From Amycolatopsis sp. WQ 127309 (lineage in GTDB: Bacteria; Actinomycetota; Actinomycetes; Mycobacteriales; Pseudonocardiaceae): a stretch of 64,000 bases of DNA. Of the stretch, positions 2 through 43,974 are shown piece by piece (the first letter of the stretch is position 1; the number at the start of each line of letters is the position of its first letter). The position numbers and the translations under genes are program-made. The stretch is from positions 11,069,455 to 11,133,454 of the forward strand of contig NZ_CP095481.1 of NCBI RefSeq assembly GCF_023023025.1. Reading direction: 5' to 3'. The notes below the pieces were generated by a model that did not search any database, was not told where the DNA came from, and saw only the letters and a list, made by a program, of their open reading frames with translations.

Positions 2-505
2 GCCACCAAGCAGTCCGGCTACACCTTCTACATCGACCCGACGCGAGTGGACACCCACCGGTTCATCCGGCTGCAGCAGCTCGGCCACGAACACCAGGAC
101 GCCGGACGCCACGCCGCGGCGGCCGACGCCTACCGGGCGGCGCTCGACCTCTGGTCCGGGCCGCCGCTGGCGAACGTCCACTGTGGACCGGTGTTGTCGG
201 CCTACCGCACGGAACTGCTGGAGCAGCGGCGCAGTGTGCTGCACCTGCGGATCGAAGCGGAGATCATCAGCGGCAAGCACCGCGAGCTGATCGGCGAGCT
301 GCGGTCGCTGGCCACCGGCAGCCCGCTGGACGAAGCACTGCACGGGCAGCTGATGCGCGTGCTCGGCCGCAGCGGGCGCCGGTCCGACGCGATGGCCGTC
401 TACCGCCGGCTGCGGTCGCGGCTGGCCGGCGAACTGGGAGTCGAGCCGTGTGACGACCTCCAGGTGCTGCACCGCGAGCTGATCTCCGAAGGGGATCACC
501 GCTGA
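2..505 (+). CDS. SARP/AfsR-type regulator, C-terminal part (partial at window edge)
   Basis: Only the last 167 codons are in the window; the frame is open to the left edge, so the start and the DNA-binding domain lie upstream. What is visible is a bacterial transcriptional activation domain (BTAD): it opens with a GYTFYIDPTRVDTHRF segment and continues as TPR-like helices (AAADAYRAALDLWSG, DAMAVYRRLRSRLAGELGV). This order is typical of SARP activators, which bind direct repeats through an OmpR-like winged helix and switch on secondary-metabolite clusters. It lies 64 bp upstream of an HxlR regulator on the same strand, at the edge of a biosynthetic region, which suits a pathway-specific activator. 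A larger AfsR-like protein is excluded because the protein stops right after the BTAD. Confidence 0.85.
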   Translation, partial: ATKQSGYTFYIDPTRVDTHRFIRLQQLGHEHQDAGRHAAAADAYRAALDLWSGPPLANVHCGPVLSAYRTELLEQRRSVLHLRIEAEIISGKHRELIGELRSLATGSPLDEALHGQLMRVLGRSGRRSDAMAVYRRLRSRLAGELGVEPCDDLQVLHRELISEGDHR

Positions 506-569: not shown

Positions 570-1268
570 ATGTCTGCTCCGCACACGCGTACCTATGGAC
601 AGTTCTGCGGCATCGCCCGCGCACTCGAGCTCATCGGCGAGCGCTGGTCGCTGCTGATCATCCGTGACCTGGTGCTCGGCGCGAAGCGCTACGACGAGCT
701 GCAGGCCGGTCTGCCGAAGATCCCGCCGTCGATCCTGTCGGCCCGGCTCAACGACCTGGAGGCCGCCGGCGTGCTCCGCCGCCGCGTCCGCGCCGAGCTC
801 GACGCCGGTCTGGTCTACGAGCTGACCCAGTACGGCAGCGAGCTCGACCACATCGTGCTCGACCTCGGGCTCTGGGGCGCCCGCTCGCTGAACGCCCCGA
901 AGGCCGACGAGGTGTTCACCCTGGACGCGGCGATCCTGTCGCTCTACACCACGTTCCGCTCCGACGCCGCGGAGAACGTGCAGATCAACTTCGAGATCCG
1001 CTACGACGACCGGATGATCGTGCACGCGCTGGTCGAGAACGGCGCGGTCAAGGTCGGCGAGGGCCGCTTCCCCGGGGCCGAGCTGGTGATCGAGGCGGCG
1101 GCCGGCACCGCGCTGCTGGACCTGATGAGCGGCCGGCTGACCGCCGCCGACGCGACCCGCACCGGCAAGCTCGGCATCGAAGGGGCCGTCGCGGACCTCG
1201 AGATGTTCGCGCAGCTGTTCCACATCCCCGCGGCACCGGAGCCGGCGACCGGCATCGTCGTCCGCTGA
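570..1268 (+). CDS. HxlR-family transcriptional regulator with C-terminal sterol-carrier-like domain (copy 1)
   Basis: This 232-residue protein has an HxlR winged helix at about residues 10-105 (ALELIGERWSLLIIRDLVLG, then SARLNDLEAAGVL for the recognition region). A C-terminal part of about 110 residues resembles an SCP2-like ligand pocket. HxlR proteins act as dimers on short palindromes and often sense small electrophiles or metabolites. The ATG follows a GTGAGGAAG ribosome binding site. A close paralogue lies at 16517-17212, next to the YcaO gene, and shares long identical stretches such as ELDHIVLDLGLWGARSL. Two such copies in one window suggest that both belong to the regulation of the local pathway. 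The ligand is unknown. Confidence 0.85.
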   Translation: MSAPHTRTYGQFCGIARALELIGERWSLLIIRDLVLGAKRYDELQAGLPKIPPSILSARLNDLEAAGVLRRRVRAELDAGLVYELTQYGSELDHIVLDLGLWGARSLNAPKADEVFTLDAAILSLYTTFRSDAAENVQINFEIRYDDRMIVHALVENGAVKVGEGRFPGAELVIEAAAGTALLDLMSGRLTAADATRTGKLGIEGAVADLEMFAQLFHIPAAPEPATGIVVR

Positions 1269-5366: not shown

Positions 5367-7766
5367 TTGTCTCCGGTCACCGCACTCGAGTCTGCCGCCG
5401 AACGTTCGGTGACCGCCGAACCCCGCGGTACGACCGCGGCGGACCGGCGGCCCCGGCTGGCCGCCTACCTGGCCTCGGCCATCGTCGTCGCCGTCGTCGC
5501 CGGTTTCAGCGTGATCGGGCTGGTCAACCTGCTGCTGCTGCCGGGGCCGGTCGGCTTCCTGCGCGGCGCCTACGCGCTGCTGGGCATCGGCGGGCTGCTG
5601 GCCATCCAGCTGCTCTGGTTCAGCCGCCCGGCCGTCCGGCACGACTCCGCCACCAGCCTGATCCTGGTCGCCGTGATGGTCGTGCTGGCCTACGTCCCCC
5701 TCCTGACCTTCGGGCTGCTGTGGGCCGACATGCCCGTCTTCGTCGGCGGAGCGGTGCTGCTCGCCCTGCCGGCGCGATACGCCGGGCCGGCGCTGACCGC
5801 GGTGTTCTTCAGCGTCGCCTGGATCTACTGGTTCTTCGACGCCTCGCCGCTGAGCATCGTGTACAACGCGGCCGGCTCGGTGTTCTACAGCCTGGTCTTC
5901 TACTTGCTGACCCGGCTCGCGCGCATGGTGCACAACCTCCACGAGGCCCGCACCGAACTGGCCCAGCGCGCGGTCGCGGAGCAGCGGCTGGCCTTCGCCC
6001 GCGACCTGCACGACCTGCTCGGCATGAGCCTGTCGGCGATCGCGCTCAAGGGCGAGCTCGCGCACCGGCTGATGCGGAAGTCCGTGGACCGCGCCAAGGC
6101 CGAGCTCGCCGAGATCACCGCCACCGCCCAGCGCACCCTGTCCGACGTCCGCGCGATCTCCCACGGCTATCGCGAGCTGTCGCTGGAAAAGGAGTCCCGG
6201 ACGGCCGAATCGCTGCTGTCGGGCTCCGAGATCGCCGTGCAGATCCACCTCGACCAGGGTGACCTGCCGGTGCAGACGCGCACGCTGCTGGCCAAGGTGC
6301 TCCGCGAAGGGGTCACGAACGTCCTGCGCTACAGCGACGTCGAGCACTGCGAGATCGACGTCCGGCACCAGGACGGCAAGGTCACCCTGGAGATCGTCAA
6401 CGACGGCATGACGGCGGACGCCCCGGCGCTCTCGCCGGACAGCAGGCTGACCAGCCTGCCCGGGGAGTTCGCCGCGCTCGGCGGCACCGCGAGCGCGAAG
6501 ATCGACGCGGACGGCCGGTTCCGGCTGCGCGTCGAGCTGCCCGTGCCCGGCCGCCAGGGCACCCCCGCCCCGCACGAGGGCGAGCAGCGGACGCAGATCG
6601 AGTCGAAGCGGATCCGCAGGCTGCTGCCGCTCACCATGGCGATGATGGCCTTCGGCGCGACCGTGCACGAGCTCCAGCTGACCGACCAGCCGTGGGACCT
6701 GGCCCTGGTCGTCGGCTCGATCGCGGCGCTGCTCGCCCTGCAGTTCTCGTACTTCAACCGCCCGACGACCCAGCTGCGCTCGGCGCAAAGCTACGGGATG
6801 CTGTTCGTCCAGGCCTGCCTGATCTACCTCCCGCTGCTGCCGCTGGGGCAGAACTGGGTCAGCCTGCCCGGGCTGCTGATCGGCAGCGCGCTGCTGGTCC
6901 TGCCCCCGGTGCTGGGCTGGGCGTTCTTCGCGCTGAACATCGCCGCCTACGCGGAGATCCAGCGGATCTCGGGCGCCGACATCACCTCCACCGTGTTCTA
7001 CACCGCCGCGACCGTGATGACCGGGCTGGCCGTGTTCGGGCTGCTGTGGCTGGTCCGGCTGGTCACCGAGCTGGACAGCACCCGGCGGCGCCTGGCCGAG
7101 ATGGCCCTCGCCGAGGAACGCCTGCGCTTCGCCCGCGACCTGCACGACCTGCTCGGCATGAGCCTGTCCGCGATCGCGCTGAAGAGCGAGCTGACCGCCC
7201 GGGTGCTGCCGCTGGACCGCGGCCGGGCCGAAGAGGAGCTGACGGAGGTCCTCGGCCTGACCCGCCAGGCGCTCTCCGACGTCCGGTCGGTGGCCAGCGG
7301 CTACCGCGAACTGTCCCTCGACAGTGAATCCCGCACCGCGAGGTCCGTGCTGGTGGCCGCGGACGTCAAGGTGCGCATGGAGATGCTCGAAGACGAATTG
7401 CCCACGACGGTGCGCACGGTACTGGCCGTCGTCCTGCGCGAAGGCATCACGAACGTGCTGCGCCACAGCAAGGTGGAGAGCTGCGAGATCGCGATGCGCC
7501 GCACCGGCAACGGGATCTGCCTCGACATCGTCAACGACGGTGTCCAGCGGGACGCCGCCCGCGTGCCCGCCACCCGCTCGGAAGAGCAGGCGGCGGCCGG
7601 GGTGCCCGCACCGCGGCTCGCGGGCACGGTCGCCGTGCCCGCCGACGCGTCCCCGGGCAGCGGGATCGGCAACCTCTCCCACCGGGTCACCGACCTCGGC
7701 GGCAAGCTCACCGCCGGGATCGAGCCGGACGGCCGGTTCCGGCTGCGGGCCGTCGTCCCGGTCTGA
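5367..7766 (+). CDS. Tandem double sensor histidine kinase (two complete NarL-type kinases in one protein)
   Basis: This 799-residue protein is an in-frame duplication of a membrane sensor kinase. Module 1 has TM helices at about residues 25-175, a HisKA_3 box [17 protein letters not shown] with His215, and an ATPase domain at about 300-395 with N-box [10 protein letters not shown]. Module 2 repeats this: TM helices at about 420-565, [17 protein letters not shown] with His593, and an ATPase domain with EGITNVLRHS and the G-box GSGIGNL. The first module lacks a GxGxxN G-box (it reads SRLTSLPGEFAALGG), so its ATP lid is degenerate and only module 2 looks fully active. The TTG start at 5367 has GGAGGGGG eight bases upstream. 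A convergent response regulator ends 54 bp downstream. The kinase is related to the one at 11142-12335. Confidence 0.9.
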   Translation: MSPVTALESAAERSVTAEPRGTTAADRRPRLAAYLASAIVVAVVAGFSVIGLVNLLLLPGPVGFLRGAYALLGIGGLLAIQLLWFSRPAVRHDSATSLILVAVMVVLAYVPLLTFGLLWADMPVFVGGAVLLALPARYAGPALTAVFFSVAWIYWFFDASPLSIVYNAAGSVFYSLVFYLLTRLARMVHNLHEARTELAQRAVAEQRLAFARDLHDLLGMSLSAIALKGELAHRLMRKSVDRAKAELAEITATAQRTLSDVRAISHGYRELSLEKESRTAESLLSGSEIAVQIHLDQGDLPVQTRTLLAKVLREGVTNVLRYSDVEHCEIDVRHQDGKVTLEIVNDGMTADAPALSPDSRLTSLPGEFAALGGTASAKIDADGRFRLRVELPVPGRQGTPAPHEGEQRTQIESKRIRRLLPLTMAMMAFGATVHELQLTDQPWDLALVVGSIAALLALQFSYFNRPTTQLRSAQSYGMLFVQACLIYLPLLPLGQNWVSLPGLLIGSALLVLPPVLGWAFFALNIAAYAEIQRISGADITSTVFYTAATVMTGLAVFGLLWLVRLVTELDSTRRRLAEMALAEERLRFARDLHDLLGMSLSAIALKSELTARVLPLDRGRAEEELTEVLGLTRQALSDVRSVASGYRELSLDSESRTARSVLVAADVKVRMEMLEDELPTTVRTVLAVVLREGITNVLRHSKVESCEIAMRRTGNGICLDIVNDGVQRDAARVPATRSEEQAAAGVPAPRLAGTVAVPADASPGSGIGNLSHRVTDLGGKLTAGIEPDGRFRLRAVVPV

Positions 7767-7820: not shown

Positions 7821-8426
7821 TCACAGCCAGCCGGACTCTTCGGCGATGCGGATCGCGTCCACCCGGTTGCGGGCGTTGAGCTTCGCGACGACCGTCGTGA
7901 GGTAGTTGCGGACGGTCCCGGCGGACAAGTAGAGCCGGGCGGCCACCTCGACCGTCCCGAAGCCCTGCGCGGTCATCCGCAGGACGTCCAGCTCCCGGGC
8001 GGTGAGCGGGCAGTCCACCGAGTCCCAGGCCGCCAGCGCCAGGTCGCCGTCGACCATGCGCCGGCCGGCGAGGACCCCCCGCACGGCGTTGGCCAGCTTG
8101 TCCGGGGGCGCGTCCTTGAGCAGGAAGCCCCCCACCTTGGCGTCCAGCGCCCGGCGCAGCGTCCCGGGTCTGCCGAGGCTGGTGAGGATGACCGTCCGGC
8201 AGTCCGGGACCTGTTCGTGCAGCTCACCGGCGGCGGTGAGCCCGTCCATGCCCGGCAGGTCGATGTCGATGACCGCCACCTGCGCCTCTTTCGCGCGGGC
8301 CATCGGCACGATGTCGAGGCCCGACGCCACCTCCGCGACCACGTCGATGTCGGGCTCCAGCCGGAGCAGGGCGACCAGCGCCCCACGCACGATGTGCATG
8401 TCCTCTGCGACGAGCACTCTGATCAC
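7821..8426 (-). CDS. NarL/LuxR-family response regulator (copy 1)
   Basis: The GTG at 8426 is chosen because GGAGG lies five bases upstream and because it gives 201 residues, exactly the length of the paralogue at 10293-10898. The receiver domain (1-120) has the acidic pair in LVAEDMH, the phospho-acceptor Asp in VIDIDLPGMDG, the switch Thr/Ser in ILTSLG and the Lys in FLLKDAP. A LuxR-type helix-turn-helix follows (LTARELDVLRM, LYLSAGTVRNYLTTVVAKL). It is convergent with the double kinase, its likely partner. It lies just downstream of the 57-codon peptide gene on the same strand, separated from it by a hairpin. Confidence 0.92.
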   Translation of the reverse strand: MIRVLVAEDMHIVRGALVALLRLEPDIDVVAEVASGLDIVPMARAKEAQVAVIDIDLPGMDGLTAAGELHEQVPDCRTVILTSLGRPGTLRRALDAKVGGFLLKDAPPDKLANAVRGVLAGRRMVDGDLALAAWDSVDCPLTARELDVLRMTAQGFGTVEVAARLYLSAGTVRNYLTTVVAKLNARNRVDAIRIAEESGWL

Positions 8427-8645
8427 GGATGCCTCCGCACTCACGATTCCCCAGAACCCCAGTTAAACATTCTGCCCGAGGAATCGGTTGCACCATTCGG
8501 GCACCACTGGCGCCGGCATCGCGAAATGTCCGGGCACCCACCGGGACGGCTCGAGGAAAAGATCTATCCGCAACCGGACAGCTACCTGTGGTGACCGGTG
8601 ACGGAGGCTCGGACGAGCGTGGTGGGAAATTTTCCGGCTTGCCCC

Positions 8646-8707: not shown

Positions 8708-8881
8708 TCAGGCGGCTTCCAGGACGTCCGCCCGGCAGAAACAGGTACGAGCCGGGCCGCCCGAAGTGGCCTCTTGCCACTGTCCGAACTGTTCGATCAC
8801 CAGGTCGGTGGCCGTCTTGTCGAACTCGATGCCCATATCCGAGAAAAGCGCGCGAACGTCAGCGGAAACATGTGCAGTCAT
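8708..8881 (-). CDS. Candidate RiPP (TOMM) precursor peptide, 57 residues
   Basis: This short ORF starts at ATG 8881 with a GGGGAG ribosome binding site about eight bases upstream. It encodes an acidic, helical N-terminal part (MTAHVSADVRALFSDMGIEF, then DKTATDLVIEQFGQWQE) and a short tail rich in small residues (ATSGGPARTCFCRADVLEAA). That is the layout of a leader plus core. Ser40, Thr46, Cys47 and Cys49 are possible heterocyclisation sites for the YcaO cyclodehydratase (13900-16221) and the SagB dehydrogenase (12405-13850). It sits alone between divergent regulators rather than next to the enzymes, which is unusual. I recognise no known precursor family, so the assignment rests on context, size, ribosome binding site and composition. 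A small regulatory protein is the main alternative. Confidence 0.6.
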   Translation of the reverse strand: MTAHVSADVRALFSDMGIEFDKTATDLVIEQFGQWQEATSGGPARTCFCRADVLEAA

Positions 8882-9337
8882 TGTTGTTCTCCCCAGTGAC
8901 GAAGATGAATTCTCCACGTGCCACAAATCGTCGCTCAGGGATGCGTTGACAACCAGTGCCGGTGTCACCGGGCCGTTGTGGCTTACACATGCTCCGCGCG
9001 GCTCGGGAGAGACTCCGAATGGGCTAACAAACCATCGACGCGGGAGCGATCCGGGGGCTTTCGTCACCGTCCGCGTCCGGTCGGTCACGGCCCGCCGCTA
9101 CGCAGCGTGCAGAACGCACATCTCGTCATGGTCGGACTACCCGGTCCGGCGGCCGCCGGACCCGGATGTGCGAAACGCATGTCGACCATCGGCGAAACCC
9201 ATGCGCACCGGTGCACAGAGCACTTAAGAAGTAGACGTCCGCAGATCTACAGTTTTGGTCGAAATCAAGTGCCCGCAGCGGATGCCTTCGTCGGGAAGGC
9301 CCGGAGGGCGGCTCCCACGTCGGAAGGACGGCCCGCG
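8882..9337. promoter_or_regulatory. Divergent intergenic region between peptide gene and AraC regulator
   Basis: These 455 bp separate the leftward peptide gene from the rightward AraC-type gene and must hold both promoters. The sequence is locally more AT-rich than the coding DNA, notably at 9225-9270. It includes a half-palindrome GTGCGAAACGCATG at 9168-9181 that matches sites near the YcaO and copper genes. I found no convincing additional ORF here. Confidence 0.6.
9168..9187. promoter_or_regulatory. Candidate operator, CGAAAC-GCAT motif (site 1, imperfect right arm)
   Basis: GTGCGAAACGCATGTCGACC matches the site at 16319-16340 apart from two bases missing in the right arm. The left arm CGAAAC and centre GCAT are intact. 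It lies about 150 bp upstream of the AraC-type gene and about 290 bp upstream of the peptide gene. Binding by an HxlR-family dimer is an inference. Confidence 0.45.
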
Positions 9338-10087
9338 ATGGATGAGATCGTCCGGCAAGCTGTGGCTCGCGCCATCGTGACCATGCGCAACCACTTGGAC
9401 GAACGGCTCACGATCGACGACCTCGCCCGTGCGGCCGTGTTCAGCAAGTTCCACTTCACCCGGGTGTTCCTCCGGGTCACCGGGCTCTCGCCCGGCCGCT
9501 TCCTGTCCGCCTTGCGGCTGGCCGAGGCGAAACGCCTGCTCGCGACCACCGAGACCTCGGTGGCCGACATCAGTCACCAGGTCGGCTACAACAGCGTCGG
9601 CACCTTCAGCGCGCGGTTCAGCGGCAGCGTGGGCGTCTCGCCGTCCGGCTACCGCCAGCTGGGCGGCACCGCGCCGCGGCTGTCCGACCGGCAGGCCTGC
9701 CCCGGCTCGGAGGCGACCATCCGGGGCCAGCTGCGGGTGCCCCTGCCGGCCGAGGTGGGGCCGGTGTTCATCGGGCTCTTCGCTGCCCGGATCACCGAAG
9801 GCGCGCCGGCCCGGCACGTGATCCTGCCGCGGCCCGGGCCCTACGCGTTGACGAACGTCCCGCTCGGCTCGTGGTTCGTGCTGTCGCACGCCTACGGCAC
9901 CACGGCGCCCGACGACACGGCGCTGCGGCCCTTCACCGGCCTGACCGGACCGCTGACCATCCACCGCGGCGTCACCGCGAGCCTGGCGGACGTCCGGATG
10001 CGACCGCGGGACGGTTTCGACCCGCCCGTGCTGCTGGCGCTGCCGGACCTGCGCCAGCCCGCGATATCCCGGCCGATGGCGAGCTGA
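9338..10087 (+). CDS. AraC/XylS-family transcriptional regulator
   Basis: The ATG at 9338 follows a GGAAGG ribosome binding site. The 249-residue protein carries the double helix-turn-helix at its N terminus (about 10-110): LTIDDLARAAVFSKFHFTRVF and VADISHQVGYNSVGTFSARF, closed by VGVSPSGYR. The C-terminal 130 residues look like a small-molecule-binding effector domain (GyrI-like possible). An N-terminal DNA-binding domain followed by an effector domain is seen in Rob-like and related regulators. It is divergent from the candidate precursor gene, so regulation of that gene is plausible. A hairpin terminator follows at 10109-10141. Confidence 0.88.
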   Translation: MDEIVRQAVARAIVTMRNHLDERLTIDDLARAAVFSKFHFTRVFLRVTGLSPGRFLSALRLAEAKRLLATTETSVADISHQVGYNSVGTFSARFSGSVGVSPSGYRQLGGTAPRLSDRQACPGSEATIRGQLRVPLPAEVGPVFIGLFAARITEGAPARHVILPRPGPYALTNVPLGSWFVLSHAYGTTAPDDTALRPFTGLTGPLTIHRGVTASLADVRMRPRDGFDPPVLLALPDLRQPAISRPMAS

Positions 10088-10108
10088 ACGCGCGCTTTTC
10101 CGGCCGTG

Positions 10109-10141
10109 GACCCGCCGTCCGCACCGCGCGGACGGCGGGTC
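10109..10141 (+). terminator. Hairpin terminator after the AraC-type gene
   Basis: GACCCGCCGTCCG and its exact complement form a perfect 13-bp stem with a 7-nt loop, 22 bp after the stop codon. No T-run follows, as is usual in high-GC actinomycetes. Confidence 0.7.
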
Positions 10142-10292
10142 TCGCGCGTCACGGGTCCGCTCCGGCGGGAACCGCGGAATTCCGGACGTTCTCACCCGGA
10201 CGATCGAGCGGCGTCCGCGAAACACCGGCACCGGGGACGAATGACGTACAATCACCACACGGAGTCGCTGAACTGGGGGGCGAGGTACCGGC

Positions 10293-10898
10293 GTGATCAA
10301 GGTGTTGCTGGCCGAGGACATGCACATGGTTCGCGGCGCCCTGGTCGCCCTCCTGAACCTGGAGTCCGACATCGAAGTGGTGGCCGAGGTGTCCTCGGGC
10401 GACCAGATCCTGCCCGCCGCGAAAGCGGCGATGCCCGACGTCGCGGTGATCGACATCGACCTGCCGGGCAAGGACGGGCTGTCCGCGGCGATCGAAATCC
10501 ACGAGAGCCTGCCCGACTGCCACACGCTGATCCTCACCAGCCTCGGCCGGCCGGGCACGGTGCGCCGGGCGCTGGACGCGAAGGTGAACGGCTTCCTGCT
10601 GAAGGACGCCCCGTCGGACAAACTGGCCAACGCCGTGCGTTCGGTCGCGATAGGACGCCGGTTCATCGACAGCGAACTCGCACTGGCGGCCTGGGAAACC
10701 GACGACTGCCCGCTCACCCCGCGCGAGCTCGAGATCCTGTCCCTGGCCGCGAAGGGCCGCACGGTCGCCGACATCGCCGCGGAGCTGTACCTCTCGGCGG
10801 GCACGGTGCGCAACTACCTGGCCGCCGTGGTGACCAAGCTGAACGCCCGCAACCGGGTACACGCCATCCGCATCGCCACCGAAGCCGAATGGCTCTGA
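10293..10898 (+). CDS. NarL/LuxR-family response regulator (copy 2)
   Basis: This 201-residue paralogue of the regulator at 7821-8426 shares most motifs word for word: LAEDMHMVRGALVALL, VIDIDLPGKDG as phosphorylation site, LILTSLGRPGTVRRALDAKV and LYLSAGTVRNYLAAVVTKL. The GTG start at 10293 follows GGGGCGAGG. It is convergent with the kinase gene at 11142-12335 across a repeat-filled gap. The pair thus mirrors the arrangement of the first kinase/regulator pair. Two near-identical regulators on either side of the candidate precursor gene suggest a duplicated two-component switch. Confidence 0.92.
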   Translation: MIKVLLAEDMHMVRGALVALLNLESDIEVVAEVSSGDQILPAAKAAMPDVAVIDIDLPGKDGLSAAIEIHESLPDCHTLILTSLGRPGTVRRALDAKVNGFLLKDAPSDKLANAVRSVAIGRRFIDSELALAAWETDDCPLTPRELEILSLAAKGRTVADIAAELYLSAGTVRNYLAAVVTKLNARNRVHAIRIATEAEWL

Positions 10899-10924
10899 CC
10901 GGTCCGATGTGACCGGACCTCGGG

Positions 10925-11141
10925 AGCCGGTTGGACGCTCGGCATGGGCACTCAGCATGGGCACTCAGCCCGACCACACAACGCGTCCACTTAGCTCAGG
11001 CGCTCGGCTCGCCCACTCAACCCGGGCACTCAGTTCGGGTGCTCGGCTCGCCCACTCAGCTCAGGCACTCAGCTCGGCTCGGCTGCTCAGCCCGCCCGCG
11101 CAGCCCGGCACACAGCCCGCCCACCCACTCACCTCGGGCGC
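10925..11141. repeat. Degenerate short tandem repeats based on CACTCAGCTCGG
   Basis: The gap between the convergent regulator and kinase genes consists of imperfect repeats about 12-20 bp long. CACTCA occurs seven times, usually followed by GCTCGG, GCCCG or ACCCGG. No coding signature is seen. Such low-complexity intergenic repeats are frequent in some Pseudonocardiaceae; they may also help terminate both transcripts. Confidence 0.75.
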
Positions 11142-12335
11142 TCAGCTCGCCCGGCGGCGGCGGGCGAGCTGCGGGCCTGAGCGCACCGGGATCGCGGCCA
11201 GCAGGCGGTGGGTGCCGTCCGGGCCCGTTTCCGTCGTCAGGGCGCCGTCCAGGGCCTGTACGCGGTCGCGGAGGTTGCGTAGCCCGGCGCCCGAGTCCGC
11301 GCCGTCGCAGGCCGCGCCCGCGGCTCCGTCGTTGACGATCTCCAGCCAGGCCGTTCCGTCTTCGGTGCTGACGGAGAACGCGCACCAGCTCGCGCTGCTG
11401 TGGCGCAGCACGTTCGTCACCCCTTCGCGCAGCACCATGGCCAGCACGGTGGCGACCTGCGGCGGCAGGCCGCCGAGCCCGGAGCGGGCCACGGTCACGC
11501 GGGTGCCGGCCGCGCTCAGCACCGCCGCCGCCGCCCGGCACTCGTCCTCGATCGACAGGTCGCGGTAGCCGGCGGCGATCGTGCGCACGTCGGCCAGCGC
11601 GCGCCGCGACATCACCAGCAGTTCGCCGAGCTCCTCCTTGGCCTGGCCCGGCCTGTCGAGCACGAGGCGGTCGACCAGTTCACCCTTCAGGGTGATCGCC
11701 GAAAGGCTCATCCCCAGCAGGTCGTGCAGGTCGCTGGAGAACCGCTTGCGTTCCTCGGTGATGGCCTGGCGCTTCAGCTCGCGCACCTGCTCGCCGCGCT
11801 CGGCCACCAGCCGCGCGGCCGTGCCCAGCCCGAACAGCGCGAGCGTGGCGACCCCGGCGGACACCGCGCCCGCCAGGCCGGCGGCGACCGACCCACCCGG
11901 CAACGCCGGGACCACCGCCGCCCCGGCGCACGCCAGCAACGCGCCGGGCACCGCGATGACCGGCCGGAACGTCAGCAGCACGCCCCCGGCGAAGAACCCG
12001 CCGGCCACGCTCCACGACGCGCCGAACGGCAGCAAGCCGACCACCGCCTGCAGGAGCAGCACCAGGACCGGTCGCCGGGTTCGGCCGCGGCCGAACCCGG
12101 CCAGGTACGCCACCGCCAGCACCGCGGCGCAAACCGGCGCGGCCAGCCGGACGAGCCCGGGCTGGGGGCCGGTCAGCACGGGCAGGGACGCCAGCGACGC
12201 CACCCCGATCGCGGCCGCCACCTGTGCGGCGAACACGAGTGTCCGGGTCTCGGACCGCTCGTCCTCGAACGCGGGAGGCGGATCGGCGGCCGGCCCCTGG
12301 AGCCGCGTCCCGCGAATCGGTATCGGCTGAACCAC
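11142..12335 (-). CDS. NarL-type membrane sensor histidine kinase
   Basis: The GTG at 12335 lies just after a GGGAGGG ribosome binding site; a TTG at 12374 is possible but lacks a site. The product of about 397 residues has four to six hydrophobic helices (about 35-170), then a HisKA_3 dimerisation region with [18 protein letters not shown] and an ATPase domain with [10 protein letters not shown] and the G-box GAGLRNL. These boxes are intact. It resembles each half of the 799-residue double kinase. The gene starts 70 bp after sagB and may be co-transcribed with ycaO-sagB, which would put the sensor under the control of the pathway it regulates. The response regulator at 10293 is the natural partner. 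Confidence 0.9.
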
Positions 12336-12404
12336 GAGCCCTCCCAGATACCCCCTGGATCCCGGAGACTCCAAGGTAACAGGGAAGTCCGGGAAAACGG
12401 GAGG

Positions 12405-13850
12405 TCACCGCGAGGGCGGGAAATCCAGGACGCACTCGCCGACGCTCACCTCGGCCGGCCACTCCAGCTTCAGCGAGCGGTCGACCCGGTCCCCGGCGTC
12501 GACCGGCACGGCGTGCGCGGCCAGCCCCATCGCCTTCGCGGTCAGGTAAAGGACCTGCTGCAGGGCACCGACGTGCAGCAACGTCGTCGCGTACGCGGCG
12601 TTCCCCAGCACCCACGCGATCCGCGACATCCGCGCGGTCATCGTCAGCAGCACCGGCGGCCGGCGGTGGCTGCCGGCCCCGACCATCGCCAGGTCGAGCA
12701 GGCCGTCGAGGCCACCGGCGTCGTCGTTGGTCAGCGTCAGGGTGTGCCACAGCGGGTCGTAGTGGTAGATCCCCCGCGCCAGGCCGACGCAGCGGTTGAT
12801 CGCGACGTAGATCTCGAGCTCGTACAGGCAGGCGACGCTGAAGTAGGGCCGCTGGGAGGCCTCGTGGGCCGGGCCGCCGGGCAGGTACGCCGGGCCGACC
12901 GAGCGCACCCGCGCGGCGCGGAAGAGCAGCTCCCCGATCTGCTCGGCGGACAACGCGCGCTCGGTCATCTCGGGGCAGGTGTGGTCGTCTTCGAGCAGCT
13001 CGCTCAGCGTCGGGTCGTTGGCCTGGAGCATCGCCGGGCTGGGCCGGTGCAGCGGGAAGGTCGAGCCGGCCGCGGTCTGCTTGACCACCGGCGGCTCCGC
13101 GCCCTCGCGGTGCGCCCCCGGATCCGTCGGGCCGCCCTTCTGCCAGGTCCGGCTCCGGGCGTGGAACAGCAGGTCACCGGGCGACCAGACGGCCAGGTCA
13201 CCGTCGGTGTCCTCGGTGAACCGCGCCCAGTCGTCGGCCAGCAGCGCCACCCCCGCGGCCACCAGGAACGCGATGATGTCGGCCACGACCGGCTCGGCCA
13301 GCCCGGTGGTCTCCGCGACCTGCGCGACGGTGACCGGACCGGCCAGCGACGAGACCACGAGCATCGCCGGCGGCCGCAGCAGCGCGACCCGGTACCGGGC
13401 GCGGGGGGACTCGAGCAGCAGCCCGCCGCCGTCCGGGCGCATCGCCGAGAACCGGGAGAGCTTGACCTGCCGGCCGGGTGGCACCGGTTCGGCCTGGAAG
13501 ACCGGGGACTGGGTGACCGGGATCGCCGAGAGCAGCGGACCGCGGCCGTCGTTGAGCGCGAGCGAGTGCACGACCGAGCCGGCCAGCCGGTTGAGCACCC
13601 GGCGCAGCGTGCCGGCCCAGGCTTCGGCGCCACCGCGCGCCGACGAGACCAGGTTGGCCATCGACACCGGCCCGAGCAGCAGCCGGCTCAGCGACTCGCG
13701 GACCGCTTCGGGAATGCTCGCCAGCTCGTACTCGCCCCACCACGTGATCGCGACGAGCGTGTCGTCCTCCCCCGCTTCCAGCAGGGTGTCTTCGCTCAGG
13801 GACCACAGCCGGACGGTCTCCGGACTGCCCTCCAGGCCGTCTGCAAGCAA
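12405..13850 (-). CDS. SagB-type peptide azoline dehydrogenase (TOMM biosynthesis)
   Basis: This 481-residue protein is read from TTG 13850, which has AGGAG six to seven bases upstream. The C-terminal half (about 285-475) is a nitroreductase-fold FMN domain of the SagB type (FPLHRPSPAML, RPYFSVACLYELEIYVAIN, GIYHYDPLWHTLTLT, LHVGALQQVLYLTAKAMGL). The N-terminal 270 residues contain a winged-helix-like segment (VTVAQVAETTGLAEPVVADI), as seen in long actinobacterial SagB proteins. The family oxidises azolines to azoles after cyclodehydration of Cys/Ser/Thr. It begins 49 bp after the YcaO gene on the same strand, so the two form an operon. This predicts thiazole or oxazole, not only azoline, in the product. 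Confidence 0.88.
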   Translation of the reverse strand: MLADGLEGSPETVRLWSLSEDTLLEAGEDDTLVAITWWGEYELASIPEAVRESLSRLLLGPVSMANLVSSARGGAEAWAGTLRRVLNRLAGSVVHSLALNDGRGPLLSAIPVTQSPVFQAEPVPPGRQVKLSRFSAMRPDGGGLLLESPRARYRVALLRPPAMLVVSSLAGPVTVAQVAETTGLAEPVVADIIAFLVAAGVALLADDWARFTEDTDGDLAVWSPGDLLFHARSRTWQKGGPTDPGAHREGAEPPVVKQTAAGSTFPLHRPSPAMLQANDPTLSELLEDDHTCPEMTERALSAEQIGELLFRAARVRSVGPAYLPGGPAHEASQRPYFSVACLYELEIYVAINRCVGLARGIYHYDPLWHTLTLTNDDAGGLDGLLDLAMVGAGSHRRPPVLLTMTARMSRIAWVLGNAAYATTLLHVGALQQVLYLTAKAMGLAAHAVPVDAGDRVDRSLKLEWPAEVSVGECVLDFPPSR

Positions 13851-13899
13851 GGTATTCTCCTAGGGCGGAACAACGAGCACTGAGCCTCCCGCGGGACTC

Positions 13900-16221
13900 T
13901 TAAAGAAACATCGGGAACGGGTTGAGGCCCTCGTACGGCGTCGGCGCGTCGAGCCGGCCGAGCCGGACCGGGACGTCGAACAGCCGGCCGGGCGCGAACC
14001 GGGCCCAGAACGGCCGCAGGCCCGGGACGAGCACCTTGACCACCGGGATCCCGACGTCCGGCCGGGTCTGGTCGAGCACGAGCAGCTCGAGACCCGCTTG
14101 ACCGAGCAGCCGGGCCAGCGCCTCGACGTCGTCGCGGACGTCGGACCGGTTGACGTACGGGAAGTCGGCCGCGGCCCGCATCCGCTGCCCGGCCGCGGGC
14201 CGCAGGTAGGGCTGGTTGGCGACGGTGGCGTACGCGAGCCAGCGCCGCGCGTCCGGGTCGTCGACGTCGTGGCCCGCGGCCTGCACGACGGGCAGCATCT
14301 GGTTGAGCTCGGTCACCGCCCGGCGCACCGCGATTCGCGGGTCGAGGTGGGCGCCGAAGCCCATCATGATGTCCTCGTGCGGGCCGTCGGTCCGCCGCGA
14401 AAGCGCGACGGCCACCGGGATCCCGAGATCGGACGTCACGTCGAGGACCCACAGCTCCCGGCCGAGCGTCGCGTAGCCGGCCGACATCTCCTCCAGCCAC
14501 GGGTCGCCGAAGGACGCGAGGTCGACGCCCGGCACCGGCGTGCGGTTGTACCACCACAGCGCCACCGCGTCGCGTTCGACGAGCTCCAGCGCGCCCTGCA
14601 GGATCGCGTCCTCCAGGCTGCTGCCCGCCGCGGCGCCGTTCGAGTCCGCGCGCACCCCGGGCGTCGCGTGCTCCCGCGGGATGCCGTAGTACAGGTAGGA
14701 CGTCGGCAGCAGGCGGCGCTGCCCGGTGAGCGACCACACCGGCGTCCAGTCGACCTCGGCCGCCGGGTCGAACGGCGCGGGGATCCCCTGGAACTCCGCG
14801 TGGGCGCGGTTCCAGGCCGCGCGGTCGCGGTACTGCCGGTCGTCGAAGAGCATGCATTCGTTGGGGTGGACGGCTTCCTCGCCCAGCTGCTCGTAGGAGC
14901 CGCGGATGCGGAGCTCGTCGCCCTGGAAGTTGCCGGAGAACCGCTCCGCCGCCTCGCAGAGGGCGCTGACCTCGGCGTCGAGCGGGCTGACGCCCTTGCC
15001 GCCGTTCTCGCAGCGCAACCCGGCGCGCAACGCGGCCATCCCGGTGACGCCGCGGGCGACGTTGGGCCCGGAGCGGTAGGCGTTGGCGAACGACGGCGCG
15101 TCCGGGTCCGGCCGGATCTCCTTGATGATCCCGGTGACCGGGCTGACCAGGTGCCGGTGCCGGCTCAGCATCTCCGCCGGGGTGGTCGTCCGGTGCCCGC
15201 CACCGCCGGTGGTCGCCTTCTTCGCCGGCTGCAGCACCACCGGGCGGTCCGTGCGCCCGGCCACCAGCGACGGGTCGCCGCAGTCCGGGCACTGCGGGCG
15301 GCGGCGCAGCTCGTGCAGCCGGCCCTGCAGGTCGAGCGTGTCCAGCGTCCACACGCACTGCTGGCCAGGATGGCGGTAGCCGGCCAGCCACTTGGACGCC
15401 TCCAGCGCGACCAGGTGCGCCGCGGCCGCGGTCAGCGACGGCAGCGCCGACACCGGGCGGTGCGCCGGGCCGGCGTGGCCGAGTTCTTCCTGCACGCAGG
15501 CCTCGGCGTGCCGGTGGCCCCACAGCCGGTGCGTCAGGCAGTGCCAGCAGGCCTCCCCCGGCTGGAGCACCGGGCCGATCCACACCTGGGCCCCGGACGG
15601 GCGCGCGAGCAGCCAGGGCCGCCCGGTCCGGCGGTGCTCGGCGTCGATCACGGCCAGGCGCGGGTCGAGGTAGTCGGCGCACAGCACGATCGAGAGGTCG
15701 GCGACGCCGGCGTCCGCGGGCACCACCGCGATACCGGCGTCGGCCAGCGCCCGCTCGACGGCTCCGGGGTCGGTGCCGGCGGCGCTGTCGCCCACCGCGA
15801 TCAGCGCCGCGGTGCCCGGCCGCGCGGCGACGACGTCGGCGTCGATGCCGCAGGCGTCCCAGTAGGCCAGCGCGCGCTCGTCACCCGGCCGGGTGCCCCC
15901 GGCCGGCTTGCGCAACGTCACCAGGCCGGCGTCGACCAGCTGGGTCAGCAGCGCGGCGACCTCCTCCGGGGCCATTCCCCCCGGCCGCCCGCGCAGCAGC
16001 CGGTCGAGGTCGTGCGTGCCGTCGAGCAGGGCCGCCAGCGATTCGATCTTGGCCCCGCGCATCGCGATGACGCCCTGCTCGGAGAACAGGTAGGCGCCCT
16101 TGCCCGCGTGGACCTCCGCCCGCAGGTGCCGCCGGAACGCCGGGGTCGGGGCGGGAGCGGGCGTGGCCGCGGCGGGCCCGCCGTCGTCCGGTACCCGCAC
16201 GTCCACCGCTGTTGTGCGCAT
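13900..16221 (-). CDS. Fused ThiF-like/YcaO cyclodehydratase (TOMM biosynthesis)
   Basis: The ATG at 16221 has a CAGGAGAG ribosome binding site and gives 773 residues. The N-terminal third is the leader-binding E1-like C domain. Its four zinc cysteines lie in ACWHC (about residue 222) and CPDCGD (about 310). The C-terminal YcaO domain shows the ATP-binding motifs GKGVSPLDAEVSALCEAAER (about 405) and GALELVERDA (about 545). The terminus is NPFPMFL, a variant of the usual PxPxP tail. Such fusions use ATP to phosphorylate the peptide amide and close Cys/Ser/Thr onto the backbone. The gene leads the ycaO-sagB operon and is divergent from the HxlR gene at 16517 across a region with a perfect palindrome. 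Confidence 0.93.
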   Translation of the reverse strand: MRTTAVDVRVPDDGGPAAATPAPAPTPAFRRHLRAEVHAGKGAYLFSEQGVIAMRGAKIESLAALLDGTHDLDRLLRGRPGGMAPEEVAALLTQLVDAGLVTLRKPAGGTRPGDERALAYWDACGIDADVVAARPGTAALIAVGDSAAGTDPGAVERALADAGIAVVPADAGVADLSIVLCADYLDPRLAVIDAEHRRTGRPWLLARPSGAQVWIGPVLQPGEACWHCLTHRLWGHRHAEACVQEELGHAGPAHRPVSALPSLTAAAAHLVALEASKWLAGYRHPGQQCVWTLDTLDLQGRLHELRRRPQCPDCGDPSLVAGRTDRPVVLQPAKKATTGGGGHRTTTPAEMLSRHRHLVSPVTGIIKEIRPDPDAPSFANAYRSGPNVARGVTGMAALRAGLRCENGGKGVSPLDAEVSALCEAAERFSGNFQGDELRIRGSYEQLGEEAVHPNECMLFDDRQYRDRAAWNRAHAEFQGIPAPFDPAAEVDWTPVWSLTGQRRLLPTSYLYYGIPREHATPGVRADSNGAAAGSSLEDAILQGALELVERDAVALWWYNRTPVPGVDLASFGDPWLEEMSAGYATLGRELWVLDVTSDLGIPVAVALSRRTDGPHEDIMMGFGAHLDPRIAVRRAVTELNQMLPVVQAAGHDVDDPDARRWLAYATVANQPYLRPAAGQRMRAAADFPYVNRSDVRDDVEALARLLGQAGLELLVLDQTRPDVGIPVVKVLVPGLRPFWARFAPGRLFDVPVRLGRLDAPTPYEGLNPFPMFL

Positions 16222-16516
16222 GGGGCTCTCCTGCCGGCAGTCGGGAGGATTGAACGAGGACCCGAATCCTGCTCCTGCAGGCCGGGGCCCGGCCAGTGTG
16301 GAAATGCACGGAGAAGTCGTGCGAAACGCATGTTTCGACCTGGGAAACACAGGGGTCGCCGGTGCGCGGCTCACTGGCAGCGCGCGGCCCGGGACGTCAC
16401 CGTGGACAGCGACGCCCGTGGCGGCACGGCACGTCGCCGGAACCGTAACCGAGCCCGCGGCACCGCGCGACTCGGGCGGCAGCCGGCCAGGCACCCGAAA
16501 AAGTGAGGAACCGAGT
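16222..16516. promoter_or_regulatory. Divergent promoter region between ycaO and the HxlR gene
   Basis: These 295 bp hold the start signals for the ycaO-sagB operon (leftward) and for the HxlR regulator (rightward). The palindrome CGAAACGCATGTTTCG lies at 16322-16337, about 100 bp from the ycaO start. No ORF is supported here. Confidence 0.65.
16319..16340. promoter_or_regulatory. Perfect palindromic operator candidate CGAAAC-GCAT-GTTTCG (site 2)
   Basis: A 16-bp palindrome with 6-bp arms and a GCAT centre sits in the ycaO/HxlR divergent region. Similar sequences occur at 9168-9187 and 17307-17325. Autoregulation by the adjacent HxlR protein is the simplest reading, but it is an inference. 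Confidence 0.55.
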
Positions 16517-17212
16517 ATGCCCACCTCTGCTCGCACCTACGGACAGTTCTGCGGCCTGGCCCGGGCGCTCGAGATCATCGGCGAACGATGGTCGCTGCTC
16601 GTCGTGCGGGACCTCGTGCTCGGTCCGAAGCGCTTCACCGACCTGCAGCAGACCCTGCCGCGCATCCCGGTGAGCATCCTGACCTCCCGGCTCAACGAGC
16701 TCGAGGAGGCGGGCGTGATCCGCCGCCGGGTCCTGTCGCAGCTGGACGCCGGGGTCGTCTACGAGCTCACCGAGTACGGCTGCGAGCTCGACCACATCGT
16801 GCTCGACCTCGGCCTGTGGGGTGCCCGCTCGCTCGGCTACCCGAAGCCGGGTGACGCCTTCAGCATGGACACCGCGATCCTGTCGCTCTACACGACCTTC
16901 CGCGAGGAAGAGGCCGCGGGCGTGCACGTCAACTACGAGCTGCGCCACCTCGGCGGCGAGATGATCGTGCACGCGCTGGTCGACGACGGCACCCTCAAGG
17001 TCTCCGCCGGCTCGCTGCCCAGCCCCGACCTGGTGATCGAGCCGCAGGGCCCGGCGATCCTGGACCTGCTCAACGGCAGCCTGACCGCGCAGGACGCGCT
17101 GTCCGGCGGTCAGGTCCACGTCGAGGGCGACCCGGCACACCTGGAGCTGTTCACCCGGCTGTTCCACATCCCGCCGGCCCCGGAGCGCCCGACCGGGCTG
17201 GCCGTGCACTGA
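16517..17212 (+). CDS. HxlR-family transcriptional regulator with C-terminal sterol-carrier-like domain (copy 2)
   Basis: This 231-residue paralogue of the protein at 570-1268 has a winged helix at about residues 8-105 (ALEIIGERWSLLVVRDLVLG, TSRLNELEEAGVI) and the same C-terminal pocket-like domain (MIVHALVDDGTLKVSAG, FTRLFHIPPAPERPTGL). The ATG follows GTGAGGAA. It is transcribed away from ycaO and is followed by the membrane/copper genes at 17342. A palindrome in each flanking promoter makes it the best candidate regulator of both sides. The sensed molecule is unknown. Confidence 0.87.
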   Translation: MPTSARTYGQFCGLARALEIIGERWSLLVVRDLVLGPKRFTDLQQTLPRIPVSILTSRLNELEEAGVIRRRVLSQLDAGVVYELTEYGCELDHIVLDLGLWGARSLGYPKPGDAFSMDTAILSLYTTFREEEAAGVHVNYELRHLGGEMIVHALVDDGTLKVSAGSLPSPDLVIEPQGPAILDLLNGSLTAQDALSGGQVHVEGDPAHLELFTRLFHIPPAPERPTGLAVH

Positions 17213-17341: not shown

Positions 17342-17917
17342 ATGTCGACGTCCGAAATCACCCGCCCCGCCGGGTTCCTCGCCGCGCTCAACAGCCGGTA
17401 CCACCACCGCGCGCTCGCCGTGTTCATGGTGATCGTCATCGGGCACTGGGCCGAGCACATCGTGCAGGCCGTGCAGATCTACGGCTTCGGCTGGCCGACC
17501 TCGCGCGCCCGCGGCGTGCTGGGCATGCCGTTCCCGTGGCTGATCTCGCAGGAGTGGCTGCACTACGGCTACGCGCTCGTGATGCTGGTGTTCCTGTGGG
17601 TCCTGCGCCACGGCTTCGCCGGCCGCTCGCGGCAGTGGTGGAACCTGGCCCTGGGCATCCAGTTCTGGCACCACATCGAGCACCTGCTGCTGTTCATCCA
17701 GGCGCAGTCGGGCTGGCGGCTGGCCGGGCAGAAGGTGCCCACCAGCATCATCCAGCTGCTGATCCCGCGGGTGGAGCTGCACCTGTTCTACAACACGATC
17801 GTCACCATCCCGATGATCGTCGCGATCGTGCTGCACCGGCGGGCCTCGGCCGCGGAGCACGAGCTGACCGGCTGCACCTGCGGGCTGCCCCGGCACTCCG
17901 CGCTCGCCGCGTCGTGA
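17342..17917 (+). CDS. Histidine-rich integral membrane protein
   Basis: This 191-residue protein has about four hydrophobic helices bearing unusual numbers of histidines: RYHHRALAVF, IGHWAEHIVQ, QFWHHIEHLLLF and RVELHLFYNTIV. Paired His in and at the ends of helices suggest metal or heme binding in the membrane. I do not recognise a named family. Its stop overlaps the start of the CopC-CopD gene by four bases (GTGA), so the two are made together, which supports a role in copper handling. An operator-like palindrome lies directly upstream. The short C-terminal tail contains CTCG, a possible further metal site. Confidence 0.7.
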   Translation: MSTSEITRPAGFLAALNSRYHHRALAVFMVIVIGHWAEHIVQAVQIYGFGWPTSRARGVLGMPFPWLISQEWLHYGYALVMLVFLWVLRHGFAGRSRQWWNLALGIQFWHHIEHLLLFIQAQSGWRLAGQKVPTSIIQLLIPRVELHLFYNTIVTIPMIVAIVLHRRASAAEHELTGCTCGLPRHSALAAS

Positions 17918-19233
17918 AACGCGCGCTGGCCCTGCTGGCCCTGGTCCTCGGCCTGCTGGTGGTCGGCGCCGTTCCCGCTTCGGCTCACGTCGAGATCATC
18001 TCGTCCACCCCCGGGGACGGTGCCCGCCTGACGGCGGCGCCGTCCCTGGTGTCGGTGACGCTGTCGGAGAACATCGGCATCCAGCCCGGCTCGATCAAGG
18101 TCGTGGACCTGTCCGGGAAGCAGGCCGACACCGGCCCGGTGTTCCAGCCCGGCGACGTCGCCGAGCAGGTGGCGGTGCGCCTCGAGCCGGGCCTGCCCGA
18201 CGGCAGCTACCTGGTCGAGTACGCGTTCGTCTCGGCCGACTCGCACCCGGTGCGCGGCACGTTCGCGTTCGTCGTCGGCACCGGCCCGCTGGTGACGTCG
18301 GCGGGCGCGGTCTCGGCGGCCACCGGCACGGACCCGGCGGTCGACGCCGTGTCGACGGCGGTCCGCTGGCTGGCCTACCTCGGCGTCGTCCTGCTCGGCG
18401 GGCTGGCGTTCGTGCTGCTCTGCCGCCCGGGCGCTCGCACCGACGGCCGCGCGCGGCGGCTGCTGCGCTGGGGCGCGGTACTGGTCGGCGCGATGGCGGC
18501 CGCGGCGTTCGTGCTGCAGGGCCCGTACGCGGCCGGGCGCGATCTGGCCGCGGTGACCGACCCGGCCCTGCTGGCCGACACGCTCCGCGTCGCGTACGGG
18601 AAGCTGCTGCTGCTGCGCCTGGTCGCGGTGGGCGCGCTGGCGGTGTGCACGGCCCGGCTGCTGCGGCCGTCGGATCACCTGCGGCCGCGCTTCGAGAACC
18701 TGGCGATGGTGGCCGGCTTCCTCGTCCTGCTGACGTTCTCGGCGACCGGGCACCCGGTGACCGACCCGATCATGTACTTCTCGGTGACCGCGGACCTGGT
18801 GCACTTCGGCGCGATCGCGATCTGGGCCGGCGGCCTGGTCCAGCTGGCGCTGTGCCTGTACCGCCCGGCCGACGGCGAGGACGTCGCCGGCGTGGCGGCC
18901 CGGTTCTCCAGGCTGGCGGCGGGCGCGGTGACGGCGATCGCGCTCAGCGGCGCGGTGCTGGCGCTGCGGATCATGCCGTCGCTGACGTCGTTGTGGACCA
19001 CCCGGTTCGGGCTGCTGGTGCTGCTGAAGATCGCGGGCTTCGCGGCGCTGCTGGCCGTGGCGAGCCGGTCCCGCCGCGCGGTCCGCCGGATGGCGACCCC
19101 CGCGCCCGGCGGCACGGCGACGCTCACCACGGACCTGCGCCGCCTCCGTCTGGCGGTGTCGACGGAGGTCCTGCTCAGCGTGGTCGTCCTCGCCTTGGCG
19201 GCGTTCCTGACGGTCACCCCGCCCGGCGGCTGA
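17914..19233 (+). CDS. CopC-CopD fusion, copper-binding and import protein
   Basis: This 439-residue protein starts with a GTG that overlaps the previous stop. A Sec signal peptide (about 1-22, ending in ASA) is followed by a CopC domain: the mature protein would begin with His in AHVEIISSTPGDG and has SADSHPVRG as second ligand region. From about residue 140 a CopD-type domain with some eight TM helices follows, including FSVTADLVHFGAIAIWAGGL. The N-terminal His of CopC binds Cu(II) in known members, and CopD-type proteins move copper into the cytosol. Together with the His-rich protein it would bring copper to the cell that makes the azole peptide. Confidence 0.9.
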   Translation: MKRALALLALVLGLLVVGAVPASAHVEIISSTPGDGARLTAAPSLVSVTLSENIGIQPGSIKVVDLSGKQADTGPVFQPGDVAEQVAVRLEPGLPDGSYLVEYAFVSADSHPVRGTFAFVVGTGPLVTSAGAVSAATGTDPAVDAVSTAVRWLAYLGVVLLGGLAFVLLCRPGARTDGRARRLLRWGAVLVGAMAAAAFVLQGPYAAGRDLAAVTDPALLADTLRVAYGKLLLLRLVAVGALAVCTARLLRPSDHLRPRFENLAMVAGFLVLLTFSATGHPVTDPIMYFSVTADLVHFGAIAIWAGGLVQLALCLYRPADGEDVAGVAARFSRLAAGAVTAIALSGAVLALRIMPSLTSLWTTRFGLLVLLKIAGFAALLAVASRSRRAVRRMATPAPGGTATLTTDLRRLRLAVSTEVLLSVVVLALAAFLTVTPPGG

Positions 19234-21041: not shown

Positions 21042-21072
21042 CTGATCATCACCCTCGTGTGCCGGCATGGGG

Positions 21073-37276: not shown

Positions 37277-37292
37277 TGGGGTTTCCCGTCCC

Positions 37293-40155: not shown

Positions 40156-40252
40156 CCGCTCCTCGCCTCGTGGACCAACTGGTGTTCAGTCTGCTTGCTC
40201 TCGAGATCGCGCGGCGTCTCCAGCCTTGCGCCGGCCCGCCGGGCGGGTGCCG

Positions 40253-43785: not shown

Positions 43786-43898
43786 GATCCGCTCCGGTGC
43801 TTGGTGGCGAGTTCGGCGAGGGCGGGAAGCGCCCCGGGGTGCGGGAAGAGCCGCGGCGAGCGGCTCGGGTGGCGGACGGGCGCGAAGAGAACTCGCAT
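43782..43898 (-). CDS. Small 38-codon ORF coupled to the condensation-methyltransferase gene
   Basis: The ATG at 43898 follows a strong GGAGGAG ribosome binding site. The product begins MRVLFAPVRHPSRSPRLFPH and ends KHRSGS, and the TGA overlaps the next GTG in a GTGA. It may be a translational lead-in for the large gene, a small protein, or the remains of a glycosyltransferase start: MRVLFAPVRHPS resembles MRVMIATVPHPS at 24254. I recognise no family. The downstream gene has only a weak ribosome binding site of its own, so coupling through this ORF is plausible. Confidence 0.5.
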   Translation of the reverse strand: MRVLFAPVRHPSRSPRLFPHPGALPALAELATKHRSGS

Positions 43899-43974
43899 GC
43901 GTGGCTCCTCCTGCAGGGCTTTCGTGCGGTCAGTCCAGCACCGGGACGTCCACCCGGACGTCTCCTGGTGTGCG

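Follow-up and report, generated by a model that had tools for sequence, protein, structure and literature searches.

The window, a stretch of 64,000 nucleotides, forms the right end of the 11.13-Mb single-contig genome of Amycolatopsis sp. WQ 127309 (G000). It carries a predicted system for a ribosomally synthesized and post-translationally modified peptide (RiPP) of the thiazole/oxazole-modified microcin (TOMM) type, in which the gene of a short peptide lies apart from the genes of its putative modifying enzymes. Three genes make up the core of this system:

8708..8881, minus strand: predicted 57-residue precursor peptide, with a leader of about residues 1-42, a core GPAR-T-C-F-C-R-AD and a conserved tail DVLEAA (where the leader ends and the core begins is guesswork)
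12405..13850, minus strand: SagB/ThcOx-like protein of 481 residues without the Lys-Tyr, RRS and PSGG signatures, assigned by sequence family and predicted fold
13900..16221, minus strand: fused E1-like/YcaO cyclodehydratase of 773 residues, LynD/TruD type, assigned by Pfam, NCBIfam and alignment

These genes and the regulators around them lie where a sequence-only reading of the same DNA had placed them, with coordinates and domains in agreement. We compared the locus with 80 genomes of the genus and 310 other genomes of the family. A search of genome contigs for related loci with exact short patterns, which may omit near genomes, returned no relative, and a sequence search of genomes found some.

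The cyclodehydratase joins an E1-like part to a YcaO domain, a combination expected of TOMM and linear azol(in)e-containing peptide (LAP) systems. Pfam YcaO matched the fusion with an E value of 6.6e-104, Pfam ThiF reached 21.8 bits, below its cut-off of 28.1, and the NCBIfam models TOMM_cyclo_SagD and the leader-binding domain scored above their cut-offs. The alignment with LynD (E 8.9e-169) and TruD (E 2.2e-164) takes in almost the whole protein and shows that the cysteine pairs of the E1-like part are retained, as is the C-terminal NPxPM stretch. The other element of such systems, a small linked precursor with a leader and a core containing Cys, Ser or Thr, is present as well, its linkage being direct in other genera but displaced here.

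The open reading frame (ORF) of the peptide has GGGGAG immediately 5' of its ATG; its neighbors are a LuxR-type response regulator on the minus strand (7821-8444) and an AraC regulator on the plus strand (9338-10087). As a single-sequence query at E <= 0.01 the peptide found homologues in 44 of the 80 genus genomes; an alignment of 29 members, searched at E <= 1e-3, found the family in 60 of the 80 and in 17 of the 310 other genomes, and there is no second match in the peptide's own genome. At that threshold the 60 are exactly the genus genomes with a YcaO protein at least 60% identical to that of the window, against 0 of the 20 others, with the reservation that the 60% line was set after the data had been seen, that the alignment includes copies first found near YcaO, and that related genomes are not independent, for which reasons a Fisher value for this contrast is not to be read at face value. 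Weak matches (E 0.03-0.54) in three of these 20 other genomes (G012, G016 and G071) were taken as chance. Stronger evidence than this count is the position of the peptide outside the genus, where the 17 genomes hold 18 places with a match, all at or near a YcaO gene and 17 of them directly upstream of it on the same strand; in the exception (G183) the peptide lies about 3 kb from YcaO on the opposite strand. When 20 other-genus loci were scanned locally, an ORF with the leader motif was present in 18 (L131-L148; E up to 0.002, in a small set) and none was found in L149 and L150. The sequence-only reading had proposed a split TOMM-type system with this peptide as its precursor, and the co-occurrence and the adjacency to YcaO elsewhere bear it out; the outcome it had named as fatal, homologues found widely without YcaO, did not occur, and such a distribution is rejected on the same counts. 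A spurious ORF is likewise rejected, on the co-occurrence with YcaO and on dN/dS values of 0.26-0.55 across 10 pairwise comparisons (of 27 possible), for which 10 of the copies were used.

Neither Pfam nor NCBIfam gave a credible match for any of the 29 members, which agrees with the earlier statement that no described precursor family could be recognized. For the window peptide, Pfam, NCBIfam and PHROGs returned nothing credible (stray single matches, E 0.002-0.06), and its relatives, where source names were shown in protein searches, are called 'hypothetical' or 'uncharacterized' protein. Judged by its sequences, this is an unnamed family of predicted precursors. The leader motif takes the form L-V-I-D-R-F-x-Q-W in the alignment, and 26 of the 29 copies have a core that fits [C/S/T]-x-C. 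Of the 29, 28 were scored by script (the window, L108 and 26 of the 27 group-A loci, group A being L031-L057), and L052, which stood outside the script scoring and has a core without the motif, was counted as a miss. The first core position uses Cys, Ser and Thr alike, as in CFC, SVC and TIC. In the precursor of L081, which abuts YcaO and belongs to a paralogous group without SagB, the unit recurs in tandem as TCYCRGE, ASVCRIE, ASVCRVE, GSICRVD and PTICRAE; further repeats occur in the precursors of L084 and L147, and homologous systems have up to five units. Because the residues at one position are exchangeable and the unit is repeated, the tail is probably the processed core. Two precursor-like ORFs were seen besides. 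One, just 5' of YcaO in L133, has nine WPTT units after an LVIDRF-type leader motif; the other overlaps the YcaO start in the second YcaO locus of the window genome (L087, G000:C1:10127333-10146495), which has no SagB match, and has the core MCVACFGDTSVSPCKD.

The SagB-like protein is 98% identical to one from Amycolatopsis sp. cmx-8-4 and matches ThcOx in sequence and predicted fold, a family-level assignment in which families outside those listed in the fold comparison are not excluded. Lys-Tyr, RRS and PSGG are the active-site and flavin-contact motifs of the SagB/ThcOx azoline oxidases; the window protein has WVL, DDH and FSVA in place of WKY, RRS and PSGG. Among the 120 relatives listed, of 596, the Lys is kept in none and the Tyr in five, none of which has RR or PS at the flavin motifs. 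The Tyr is kept in 24 of 24 alignable controls (27 were taken, three unalignable at the motif and several near-copies of one another). The former flavin domain is under strong purifying selection in the 23 of 27 group-A genes compared, with L032, L034, L036 and L045 omitted for an ORF merged with its neighbor or broken. The earlier statement that the YcaO/SagB pair makes azoles is unsupported in that form, because the SagB lineage has lost both the Lys-Tyr and the flavin-contact signatures, and azolines appear the likelier outcome. With the fold kept and these signatures lost, the protein is likelier to be a partner or a changed enzyme. An ordinary LAP/TOMM pathway, in which SagB, its motifs diverged, would still be a flavin mononucleotide oxidase and the pathway would yield a small azole peptide as an antibiotic in its own right, is doubtful in light of the motif counts, and none of the five multicore loci compared has a SagB match at all. 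Shorter SagB-like proteins of 356-416 residues in L083, L086 and L150 align in their N-terminal part only, and no flavin domain was found in them; Pfam gave no match for any of the three, and NCBIfam none for L083 and L150. In L045 the SagB frame looks broken into two overlapping partial ORFs.

Two pairs of response regulator and kinase and two further regulators surround the three genes:

5367..7766, plus strand: HK2, tandem double histidine kinase with two HisKA_3 matches (by eye, the first module has no clear G-box)
7821..8444, minus strand: RR2, response regulator adjoining the precursor on the same strand
9338..10087, plus strand: AraC-type regulator
10293..10898, plus strand: RR1, LuxR/NarL-type response regulator
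11142..12374, minus strand: HK1, HisKA_3-type sensor kinase after SagB
16517..17212, plus strand: HxlR-type regulator with a weak SCP2-like tail, divergent from YcaO

In the group-A arrangement (DISPLACEMENT) the profile finds the peptide in the AraC-RR2 interval of all 27 loci, about 5.6-7.8 kb from the YcaO start. The full order HxlR-YcaO-SagB-HK1-RR1-AraC-peptide-RR2-HK2 holds in 24 of them, the exceptions lacking at those places HK1 (L055), RR2 (L056) or both HxlR and HK1 (L057). Group B, defined by a YcaO about 70% identical, has the peptide about 25 kb from YcaO and, in the three loci inspected (L109-L111), again beside an RR2/HK2 pair. Since it is so placed in both groups, the precursor of the cluster accompanies RR2/HK2 and not ycaO. 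Among the genes compared, none is as well conserved as the response regulators, whose group-A medians are 95% and 93% identity against 83% for YcaO. Genomes of group B also hold extra precursor copies with the core GCFTGACC (16 stretches, L091-L106), away from YcaO, RR2 and HK2, some with weak response-regulator and HxlR-like matches nearby; the copy in L103 adjoins an ORF that by eye resembles a metallo-beta-lactamase.

The two separated halves of the system share a sequence in their divergent promoter regions:

9168..9182, plus strand: shared control site GTGCGAAACGCATGT between the precursor and AraC genes, one of two copies in the genome
9192..9203, plus strand: second half-site GCGAAACCCATG, spaced 22 bp from the preceding one
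16319..16333, plus strand: shared control site GTGCGAAACGCATGT between the YcaO and HxlR genes, the other of the two copies
from 16342: weaker half-site GGGAAACACAGG in the YcaO/HxlR intergenic region

The 15-mer has two exact occurrences in the window, and a second half-site follows 21-22 bp further on, about two helical turns. Allowing up to one mismatch, the 14-mer GTGCRAAACGCATG is found in the 11.1-Mb genome at just the two locus copies, and its reversed control nowhere. Of 28 loci, 26 have a site within two mismatches of the group consensus on the peptide side and 14 have one on the YcaO side; 20 rounds with base-shuffled regions yielded no such match. Across 16 related genomes, which we chose from the 27 of group A, TGCRAAACGCATG gave 33 matches, 32 at the locus and one elsewhere (G075), its reversed control gave two, and 12 of the 16 carry the site at both halves. 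When the core of the site was surveyed in 27 chosen sequences, the exact core stood before YcaO in L143, from another genus. The term 'orphan', given to the peptide by the sequence-only reading, does not hold, because the distance is lineage-specific and the control site is common to both halves. Five of the 16 genomes have a third site, some 10 kb past the peptide; in the two inspected (L183 and L184) it is flanked by a BTAD regulator on one side and on the other by an AraC regulator, after which come DUF1702 and UnbV genes. The window genome has the core TGCAAAACGCA in the AraC2/BTAD interval, left of the window (L185).

That interval belongs to an adjoining polyketide synthase (PKS) locus of enediyne type, which reaches into the window with two genes:

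2..505, plus strand: C-terminal part of the BTAD regulator, whose start lies left of the window (L185)
570..1268, plus strand: HxlR2, another regulator of HxlR type, part of the enediyne-type locus

Left of the window, L185 contains a PKS N-terminus (88% identical to the PKS of a relative), a weakly RnfD-like protein, UnbV/ASPIC, DUF1702, AraC2, BTAD and HxlR2, with UnbV/ASPIC and DUF1702 above their Pfam cut-offs. We take UnbV to be E3 and DUF1702 to be E4 of the enediyne PKS cassette; E3, E4 and the PKS E are all present in the adjoining locus. The RnfD-like gene (L185 4677-5672), with a family match of 20.1 bits against a cut-off of 27.7, adjoins UnbV in relatives and is a candidate E5. An E10-type thioesterase is present in relatives (L109-L114), and the stretch of G000 that was fetched stops within the PKS gene. 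In one relative the thioesterase has 4i4j (an acyl carrier protein-polyene thioesterase, 7.7e-75) and CalE7 (5e-59) as its closest matches, and the best matches of that relative's PKS are many type I synthases, DynE8 among them. According to passages of an mBio survey of 2016 (PMC5181780), E3/E4/E5/E/E10 are common to all enediynes compared there; the likeness to this cassette lies in UnbV/ASPIC, DUF1702 and the PKS N-terminus, accompanied by the weakly RnfD-like protein and, in a relative, by the thioesterase. In 57 of the 60 genomes the starts of UnbV and YcaO are 5.6-21.4 kb apart; two others have UnbV on a different contig, and in G062 none was found. In other genera, DUF1702 is within the fetched stretch in five of 20 loci.

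As both halves and, in part of the genus, the third promoter carry the rare site, the RiPP module and the PKS locus are probably co-expressed. The linkage and the shared site further suggest, tentatively, that an azoline peptide, made by a LynD-type enzyme with SagB as a pseudo-oxidase, might serve as a built-in signal or regulator of the enediyne-type locus. It would be compatible with such a role that the peptide travels with its own response-regulator/kinase pair and that a nearly private operator is common to the ycaO and enediyne regulators, a reading we offer with the same reserve; on the same grounds the product could conceivably be read by HK2/RR2 or HK1/RR1 and so be tied to the PKS locus. 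A chance neighborhood, in which an independent RiPP locus lies beside a PKS locus and duplicated regulators have left both with a common AraC/HxlR-type operator, is in our view unlikely: the AraC/AraC2 and HxlR/HxlR2 pairs are paralogous, so that the operator could reflect duplicated regulators only, but the linkage recurs in five other-genus loci and has persisted through rearrangements within the genus, and the control site is nearly private to the locus. We consider it improbable that the modified peptide is joined to the polyketide, or is a building block of it, in a RiPP-enediyne hybrid. Such a hybrid would account for the linkage of UnbV, DUF1702 and PKS in 57 of 60 genomes (UnbV counted) and for the same control-site core before both in the loci examined, but the modules occur apart in other genera and genomes, and no joining enzyme was noticed, none having been specifically searched for. 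That the ORF is no gene or no substrate, with the true precursor elsewhere, is strongly disfavored and very improbable: for a core region, the tail DVLEAA shows an unusual degree of conservation, but the ORF is under purifying selection, co-occurs exactly with YcaO, adjoins it in other genera and is the only match in the genome.

The explanation we prefer, and hold as a whole to be likely, is that the 57-residue ORF encodes the precursor of a cyclodehydratase-modified RiPP. Its leader, with the LVIDRFxQW-like motif, would be recognized by the E1-like part of the YcaO fusion, and the YcaO domain would turn the core Cys, and the Cys, Ser or Thr two residues before it, into azolines. The SagB/ThcOx-like protein would keep the peptide-clamp/oxidase fold and act as a partner or a changed enzyme, not as an ordinary azole-forming oxidase; azoline formation and this role for SagB are what we infer from motifs and alignments. 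The precursor would have moved from its usual site beside ycaO to the second response-regulator/kinase pair, with one rare control site at both halves and, in part of the genus, at a third promoter before the enediyne-type genes.

Several observations weigh against this account. The Lys alone is also missing from five of the 24 alignable SagB controls, and the strong constraint on what was the flavin domain is compatible with catalysis that persists in an altered form. Three of the 29 cores (L048, L050 and L052) lack [CST]-x-C. When up to three mismatches are allowed, the control site has two matches in the window, the level of shuffled sequence (mean 1.64; 52 of 100 shuffles gave at least two); because such loose matching yields two by chance, the case for the site rests on its exactness, its genome-wide count and its conservation. 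The site is on the peptide side only in three of the 16 genomes (G008, G066 and G067) and at neither half in one (G055), and the exact core is absent from the six group-B stretches examined. No DUF1702 or UnbV gene is in the fetched stretch of 15 of the 20 other-genus loci, and nine of the 20 genomes that lack a YcaO at the 60% identity line nevertheless have an UnbV relative. Neither an exporter nor a leader protease was noticed, though no search was aimed at either.

The cyanobactin pathways differ from the system described here in their precursor family, in their leader, as set against the cyanobactin leader and recognition sequences, and in their core; here, moreover, the oxidase motifs are lost and two-component systems are embedded, and no PatA/PatG-type protease is among the 10 window proteins scanned, none having been specifically searched for. 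The likeness to LynD/TruD and ThcOx (solved structures 4v1t, 4bs9, 5lq4) lies in the near-full-length YcaO alignment and the ThcOx-like sequence and predicted fold. Systems treated in a 2015 paper (PMC4603692) resemble ours in the cyclodehydratase, the small precursor containing Cys, Ser or Thr and the SagB-family gene; a word search of its main text returned no Amycolatopsis, Pseudonocardia or two-component. Trunkamide-type cyanobactins are a precedent for non-oxidized products in passages of PMC5108345, which imply that the oxidase is absent there, whereas here an oxidase-like protein is kept but changed. Within the portions of the open-licence literature covered, we found no description of the precursor family, and none of a YcaO RiPP module accompanying an enediyne cluster, one paper containing both words.

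An unnamed, widespread family of predicted RiPP precursors thereby has an enzyme assigned to it. Its placement indicates that a precursor can drift from its modifying enzyme and yet keep the control site, a case that gene-neighborhood mining can miss. A SagB lineage losing its active-site signatures stepwise under strong selection offers a natural test of non-oxidation roles. The enediyne link, if functional, could provide a means of activating enediyne clusters that are silent in Amycolatopsis.

Among the genes further along the window, HpaB (19491-21068, named by eye) was found in none of the 75 loci in the comparison, which may not extend far enough to include it. A role in copper chelation, suggested by a downstream CopC/CopD-like ORF (17914-19233, by eye), was considered but set aside, since the ORF is present in 26 of 27 group-A, 10 of 11 group-B and 0 of the 37 other loci compared. 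A 191-residue protein that by eye appears membrane-like (17342-17917) has no Pfam match and occurs in 57 of the 60 genomes with the window's type of YcaO and in one of the 20 without it. A run of genes that by eye resemble nonribosomal peptide synthetases extends over 35621-44949.

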